The position numbers and the translations under genes were made by a program. The notes under the pieces were generated by a model, which saw only the letters and a list, made by a program, of their open reading frames with translations, ran no database searches and was not told where the DNA came from. A stretch of DNA of 64,000 nt from an uncultured Marinobacter sp. (GTDB taxonomy: Bacteria; Pseudomonadota; Gammaproteobacteria; Pseudomonadales; Oleiphilaceae). How positions within the stretch are numbered: the first letter of the stretch is position 1; the number at the start of each line of letters is the position of its first letter. Positions 44,789 through 54,395 of the stretch are shown here, piece by piece. Where the stretch lies: assembly GCF_913055835.1 (NCBI RefSeq), contig NZ_CAJXKQ010000013.1, forward strand, positions 39,512 to 103,511, written 5' to 3'.

Positions 44789-44821
44789 ACCGGCGGCCCA
44801 ATCTCGAGACTGAGTCGTTAA

Positions 44822-44856
44822 AACGCCACCACCGGTTCCGGTTGGTGGCGTTTTTG
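44822..44856 (+). terminator. Rho-independent terminator of rpoH
   Basis: AACGCCACC-accggttccggtt-GGTGGCGTT + TTTGTTTG. Confidence 0.8.
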
Positions 44857-44887
44857 TTTGTATAATCGGAAACTTTACCTTGGGGGC

Positions 44888-44998
44888 AGAAGCGATTGGG
44901 TGGGCCTTTCCAAAACACGCTGTGAATACGTCCCTGTACGCTCGGCTCCGCCATCCATGGCTCCGCACGGTTTTGGAAAGGCCCACCCAATCCCTTCT
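44888..44998 (-). repeat. Long-hairpin dispersed repeat, copy 1
   Basis: 29-nt inverted arms AGAAGCGATTGGGTGGGCCTTTCCAAAAC (44888-44916) and GTTTTGGAAAGGCCCACCCAATCCCTTCT (44970-44998), 1 mismatch; the 53-nt loop on the minus strand contains GTGCGGAGCCATGGATGGCGGAGCC, shared with copy 2. Confidence 0.9.
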
Positions 44999-54139: not shown

Positions 54140-54231
54140 GGAGGGGGTGGCGACACTTTTCTTCTGGGAAAAAACAACTCGCTTCGCTCAGACATCTTTT
54201 TTCCCGCCAGAAAAGCATCCCCACCCCCTCC
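54140..54231. repeat. Long imperfect inverted repeat between tssE and tssF
   Basis: 35-nt arms GGAGGGGGTGGCGACACTTTTCTTCTGGGAAAAAA / TTTTTTCCCGCCAGAAAAGCATCCCCACCCCCTCC, 6 differences; loop caactcgcttcgctcagacatc. Confidence 0.85.
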
Positions 54232-54280
54232 GGCAGACCTGAGTGCTAATTGCTCTGGGCTGTTTTGAAGGCAAGGATGA

Positions 54281-54395
54281 GAGCAGGGGTGTGGTTGATC
54301 TTTCCAAAAGTGTGCGGAGCCATGGATGGCGGAGCCCAAGCGTCCCATGGACGGGCTTGAAGCGTCTTTTGGAAAGATCAACCACGCCCCTGCTC
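54281..54395 (+). repeat. Long-hairpin dispersed repeat, copy 2
   Basis: 30-nt arms GAGCAGGGGTGTGGTTGATCTTTCCAAAAG (54281-54310) and CTTTTGGAAAGATCAACCACGCCCCTGCTC (54366-54395), 29/30 plus one G-T wobble; 55-nt loop shares GTGCGGAGCCATGGATGGCGGAGCC with copy 1. Confidence 0.92.

Follow-up and report, generated by a model that had tools for sequence, protein, structure and literature searches.

A dispersed stem-loop element of Marinobacter on a divergent branch of the TwoAYGGAY motif, with freely drifting long stems and paired ANGGA loops

Two stem-loops in a 64,000-nucleotide stretch of the genome of an uncultured Marinobacter sp. (referred to as the window) belong to an element that is real, old, abundant and structured, and both are members of a divergent, Marinobacter-type branch of TwoAYGGAY (RF01731). 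Taken as a whole, the element would probably be an RNA of this branch with CsrA-type loops, the stem of which is kept by template switching together with selection on the fold. What is new here is the scale of the family, a long stem that drifts freely and is yet closely matched, the inversions of the core, and a wobble that is strand-specific.

Two copies in the window and the family behind them

The first copy is located between the rpoH terminator on one side and a 3-hydroxyisobutyrate-dehydrogenase-like gene on the other; read directly, it consists of 29-nt arms with one mismatch around a 53-nt loop. The second copy is found in the tssE/tssF interval of a type VI secretion operon and has 30-nt arms with one G-U pair around a 55-nt loop. 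The RNA-like strand, on which the loops read GGA, is called the GGA strand; it is the minus strand for copy 1 and the plus strand for copy 2. The parts of the two copies are as follows.

44888..44998, minus: copy 1, whole stem-loop (sequence read, fold, model match)
44888..44916, minus: copy 1, 3' arm on the GGA strand (5' arm on plus), 29 nt
44970..44998, minus: copy 1, 5' arm on the GGA strand, 29 nt
44950..44961, minus: copy 1, hairpin 1, GCCAUGGAUGGC, ANGGA loop, invariant in 47/47 copies
44927..44938, minus: copy 1, hairpin 2, UACAGGGACGUA, ANGGA loop, invariant in 47/47 copies
54281..54395, plus: copy 2, whole stem-loop (sequence read, fold, Rfam and model matches)
54281..54310, plus: copy 2, 5' arm, 30 nt
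54366..54395, plus: copy 2, 3' arm, 30 nt
54319..54330, plus: copy 2, hairpin 1, GCCAUGGAUGGC (sequence read)
54344..54355, plus: copy 2, hairpin 2, CCCAUGGACGGG (sequence read)

That these are two copies of like build with a common loop core, as the first-pass annotation of the window had held, is borne out by the reading itself, by the 24-mer core TGCGGAGCCATGGATGGCGGAGCC, which the window contains two times, shuffles giving an expectation of 0.00, and by folding. Compared with dinucleotide shuffles, the fold energy reaches z values of -6 to -10 over both copies, with -5.98 for copy 1 (minus strand) and -9.08 for copy 2. A long hairpin of another kind (54140-54232, loop CAACTCGCTTCGCTCAGACATC) lies directly upstream of copy 2, between tssE and tssF.

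Across the whole genome, the pattern of a 15-mer core is matched exactly 20 times, and 66 times when up to two mismatches are allowed, some of the latter being chance matches. A covariance model, R1, was built from an alignment of 47 copies. It gives at least 104 strong matches in the genome, scoring copy 1 with 101.4 bits (G000:C13:84401-84507) and copy 2 with 104.8 bits, which establishes the dispersed family that had been proposed from two copies. The covariance-model search of relatives that had been suggested along with it extends the family to all 41 of the 41 Marinobacter genomes scanned, with 3 to at least 94 matches per genome, and to 34 of the 83 genera of the order that were sampled. 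The cores from other genera keep both hairpins, both GGA loops and the GAGC/AGCGT joints, and their stems of approximately 25-30 bp are unrelated in sequence. No earlier description of these Marinobacter repeats was found in the open-access literature, and one may exist elsewhere. A 6S RNA (86.9 bits; L014, 2510-2691, minus) is found about 900 bp away from one element.

Searches of Rfam at the gathering thresholds return zero matches in the window, while the use of an E-value threshold yields end-to-end alignments to TwoAYGGAY. There are 36 such matches in the genome at E<=1, the best of which (C13:18028) has 44.3 bits and is the only one of the 36 to pass the gathering score of 43 bits; copy 2 scores 41.5 bits and copy 1 scores 23.5 bits. 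Matches to TwoAYGGAY in 14 control genomes were sought and none was obtained. The earlier statement that the element belongs to no named family has to be given up in view of the end-to-end alignments, albeit that most copies stay under the gathering threshold, which counts against the explanation preferred here.

The original publication of TwoAYGGAY describes it as a probable RNA of unexplained role (Weinberg 2010; PMC2864571); a later match to the CsrA-binding motif led to its prediction as a CsrA binder (PMC4333381). The present copies share with it two hairpins with A-N-GGA loops inside a poorly conserved outer stem, the same strand, matches to the full-length model, and G.A-type mismatches beneath hairpin 1. 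The AYGGAY-type terminal loops occur on two hairpins, as ANGGA in 47/47 copies, and an outer stem of 29 covarying pairs surrounds both. They differ in that the outer stem is a near-perfect helix of 27-30 bp, that the loops are A-N-GGA and not strictly AYGGAY, and that there are at least 104 copies with only one above the gathering score. Furthermore, TwoAYGGAY is typed "Cis-reg" in Rfam, whereas the copies described here occur on either strand relative to genes.

Stem pairing, drift in place and probable template switching

Among the 47 aligned copies, 98.6% of the cells of the outer stem are paired, two-sided changes are seen at 29/29 outer pairs, and the covariation score is 0.591, compared with 0.144 for shuffled and at most 0.115 for slid alignments. 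Self-complementarity within each copy, despite copy-specific arms, is thereby confirmed. The further claim that outer arms differ completely has to be narrowed: they are copy-specific, but not devoid of any common sequence, since about 90% of the copies retain two G-C pairs at columns 12-13. On the core strand, the 5' arm is rich in G. Covariation is also found within hairpins 1 and 2, and hairpin 1 is either fully paired or contains an internal GGA/GGA mismatch block. An extra module of approximately 80-95 bp (..ATGAAGCGAAGCTTCAT..GACCCC..) is inserted within hairpin 2 of L019 (own genome), L203/L204 (G078, G113), L214 (G062) and L148, and relatives at the same site are without it. Another enlargement, in or near hairpin 1 and with further hairpins added, is seen in L132, L142 and L298 and is missing from L172, which is near L142.

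The evolution of the element in place was followed by comparing the intergenic region between rpoH and the dehydrogenase gene among Marinobacter species on a two-gene tree. The element is present across the genus crown, the basal lineages having neither the element nor clear remnants of it, and a long inverted repeat is found in 41/68 species. At least 107 changes from one Watson-Crick pair to another are counted, at 20/28 positions. In a cost-based reconstruction, the two-sided changes number 101 (51 of transition type and 50 of transversion type), compared with 28 one-sided steps into mismatch; parsimony on a single two-gene tree may inflate the count should recombination have swapped whole elements. 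Being of transversion type, half of these two-sided changes cannot have passed through G-U. The core has been inverted between like arms three times at the rpoH site (L159, L173, L174), and at a second site the core of the copy in our genome (L047) is inverted in comparison with most relatives.

Template switching between inverted repeats has a published signature, namely homogenisation of the arms and inversion of the spacer (PMC8604942, PMC8794818). The present element shows two-sided changes, transversions among them, as well as spacers inverted between unchanged arms, and homogenised arms coincide with an inverted spacer at the same locus, as in the published repeats. The published loop or spacer inversions comprise a few nucleotides, whereas the present case is a dispersed natural family with arms of about 28 bp and a conserved spacer of 53-58 nt. 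There are good grounds for regarding template switching between the arms as the main reason for their being near-perfect. The arms would copy each other in DNA replication, with the core occasionally being flipped.

This process could, in principle, also be all there is. After a chance amplification, template switching alone would then keep the palindrome, without any selected function. Such a purely mutational origin accounts for the transversion-type half of the two-sided changes, for the excess of two-sided over one-sided changes, for the inversions of the core, and for stems that are near-perfect although one mismatch per 28 bp scarcely affects folding. It does not lead one to expect a strand-specific wobble (28:1 and 43:1, see below), the process being strand-blind, nor that, with the arms free, both loops remain GGA from genus to genus and that hairpins 1 and 2 covary; it is accordingly considered improbable.

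How the perfect pairing of long RNA stems persists amid sequence change is an open question, to which template switching is a proposed answer. In this family, about 100 independent stems are available per genome and orthologous copies can be compared across dozens of species; its large asymmetric spacer records every inversion, so that the mutational and the selective share become separately measurable.

Strand-specific wobble and CsrA-type loops

On the GGA strand, non-Watson-Crick arm pairs amount to 43 G-U versus 1 A-C in 67 copies of our genome, as obtained by a stem search restricted to Watson-Crick pairs; this count leans towards G-U in that the copies were selected by the model. Among copies that were picked from six genomes solely on their core sequence, the numbers are 28 G-U versus 1 A-C (binomial p 6e-8). 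The bias is weaker at the rpoH site (9 G-U versus 4 A-C), a point that speaks against the explanation preferred here. Template switching as the sole corrector would give A-C and G-T in equal numbers, so the bias points to selection on the GGA-strand fold, be it as RNA or as single-stranded DNA. Because of the ANGGA loops, RNA is favored over single-stranded DNA, and the GGA strand is likely to be transcribed. The reading of the element as a structured RNA module, which had been raised at the outset, is supported by pairing, covariation, wobble and loops.

Two ANGGA loops, 23-25 nt apart and with N being mostly T or G and sometimes A or C, are present in 47/47 copies, an invariance that is partly built in, the copies having been gathered via GGA patterns; the pattern used for fetching L001-L030 did not use hairpin 2. 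Hairpin 2 (UACAGGGACGUA, CACAGGGAUGUG) resembles the CsrA SELEX consensus containing ACARGGAUGU, and one CsrA gene was found in the genome. Binding of CsrA, presumably of a dimer on the paired loops, is a well-founded guess. The paired ANGGA hairpin loops fitting the CsrA consensus are shared with the sequestering sRNAs CsrB/C and RsmX/Y/Z (PMC4333381). These, however, are many sites on a single sRNA gene, whereas the present elements are dispersed modules with two putative sites each.

According to the preferred explanation, the GGA strand would be the functional form, in which a closing helix of 27-30 bp presents two A-N-GGA hairpins, and the two loops would most likely hold one CsrA dimer. 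The RNAs of the element would act as local or summed CsrA/RsmA sites, either by titration or by protection of RNA 3' regions; for titration as the role, the assignment is tentative. The loops would hold the core sequence, while the closing helix would need only to be helical, leaving the stem sequence to drift freely, and single mismatches that weaken the GGA-strand fold would be selected against. Copies would be gained rarely and lost later through deletions. A bolder view, which taken in both its parts is rather unlikely, would see a self-spreading RNA element that carries the pair of CsrA sites as cargo, with about 100 copies serving as a distributed regulator sink tunable by copy number, and with template switching keeping the stem perfect while discarding its identity, whereby the copies would avoid recombining among themselves. 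With these data TwoAYGGAY becomes a genome-wide feature of Marinobacter and relatives, and distributed CsrA sites, if true, would alter models of the Csr system.

The locus of copy 1 has two further features.

44817..44856, plus: rpoH terminator-like hairpin (CGCCACCACCGG..CCGGTTGGTGGCG and T run), kept in most orthologous intergenic regions
44861..44866, plus: TATAAT box, past the rpoH terminator and before copy 1, kept in most species compared

The terminator-like hairpin is separate from the copy 1 element. If the TATAAT box is used as a promoter, copy 1 would be present in the leader of the dehydrogenase mRNA in its antisense (CCAUCC) form. That the likely mRNA at this site has the CCAUCC strand is an argument against the RNA explanation, as are the core flips at some sites, which are odd if the GGA strand matters there.

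Genomic context, gain and loss

All of the copies examined (67/67) are intergenic. With gene calls made by a simple codon-usage script, distances being therefore approximate, convergent gene pairs are over-represented (25 of the 66 copies with both neighbours called), and a gene on the opposite strand often has its stop codon about 34 bp (median) from the 3' arm. The upstream neighbour is oriented nearly at random, 37 pointing into the element and 29 being opposite (n=66), which again does not favor the RNA explanation. Elements that lie close together are divergent, namely 10/10 pairs under 500 bp in our genome and, among the matches listed, 16/16 pairs under 300 bp in five other genomes.

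The enrichment between convergent genes, the short distance to stop codons and the very stable stems would suit terminators or stabilisers of mRNA 3' ends that have no CsrA role. Against this stand the near-random orientation to the upstream gene, the invariant ANGGA loops, which would be left unexplained, and the fact that rpoH already has its own terminator ahead of copy 1. The flank profiles contain no T run after the 3' arm, as an intrinsic terminator would have, and the terminator reading was dropped on that account; terminators and stabilisers taken together are quite improbable. A motif search of the flanks revealed no promoter just upstream of the element; all that it found was a GTAG-type REP in the 5' flank and CtCC.AAgcc..gAAGGCt in the 3' flank.

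Gain of the element can be studied at the second site, which is located on C8 of our genome, upstream of an acetyl-CoA-acetyltransferase-like gene (named by inspection). About 13 related genomes carry the element there, and about 15 more distant ones have a cleanly empty site, a distribution that reads as one clade-specific gain. The first-pass annotation had suggested inverted duplication of local sequence, at insertion, as a possible source of the outer arms, in accordance with arms that are wholly different between copies and each pair with themselves, and some empty sites do keep a stretch resembling a 3' arm. Comparison of occupied with empty orthologous sites speaks against this origin: the longest stretches common to the outer arm and an empty site measure 4-8 nt, which is in the range obtained from shuffled sequence for 35/36 comparisons, and the arms shift gradually and in step between species. 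The sites with a 3' arm only are read as deletion remnants, as they lie mostly inside occupied clades and have arm sequence of the family type. With that, inverted duplication has very little left to recommend it. Deletions at the rpoH site that retain the arm on the side of the downstream gene and have lost the other arm plus the core are seen in L122, L126, L131, L135, L149, L151, L154 and L168.

Mobility of the element as a non-autonomous DNA transposon of the MITE or REP type would make the hairpin a recognition structure for an enzyme, with pairing that serves DNA or single-stranded DNA mobility and not RNA. At least 104 dispersed and exclusively intergenic copies, the range of 3 to at least 94 among congeners, the cleanly empty sites opposite occupied ones and the conserved 3' flank beyond the arm all fit with this possibility, and a fold of single-stranded DNA would likewise tolerate G-T and not A-C. 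The search for a cognate mobilising enzyme, as had been recommended, yielded no RAYT gene with Y1_Tnp (PF01797) in our genome, which is 94% complete, and no fixed or conserved inverted termini among 67 copies, so that a REP/RAYT mechanism finds no support. The element resembles REP/BIME and RAYT elements in being a dispersed intergenic palindrome near gene 3' ends with about 100 copies; it differs from them in its 27-30 bp stem of copy-specific sequence, in the core that is conserved in the loop and in the lack of a RAYT, and a conserved palindrome with a GTAG-type foot, as is typical of REPs, is not part of it. The suggested likeness to MITEs holds for the copy number and the clade-specific gain but not for structure, there being neither terminal inverted repeats nor, by eye, an evident target-site duplication at the second site. 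In addition, the core was absent from the plasmids, phages and viral contigs searched, the invariance resides in the ANGGA loops instead of the termini, and the arms co-evolve long past insertion, for which transposition alone has no need. The transposon explanation is thus unlikely, if somewhat less so than the other alternatives.

The conserved stretch CtCC.AAgcc..gAAGGCt past the 3' arm of copies in our genome can form a small hairpin, and the element may be longer than its stem. On the other side, a repeat (..CTAATCCGACCTAC) is found just upstream of the copies L005, L030, L034, L039, L050, L053, L058, L062, L081 and L083; it is presumably a true GTAG-type REP and a separate repeat.
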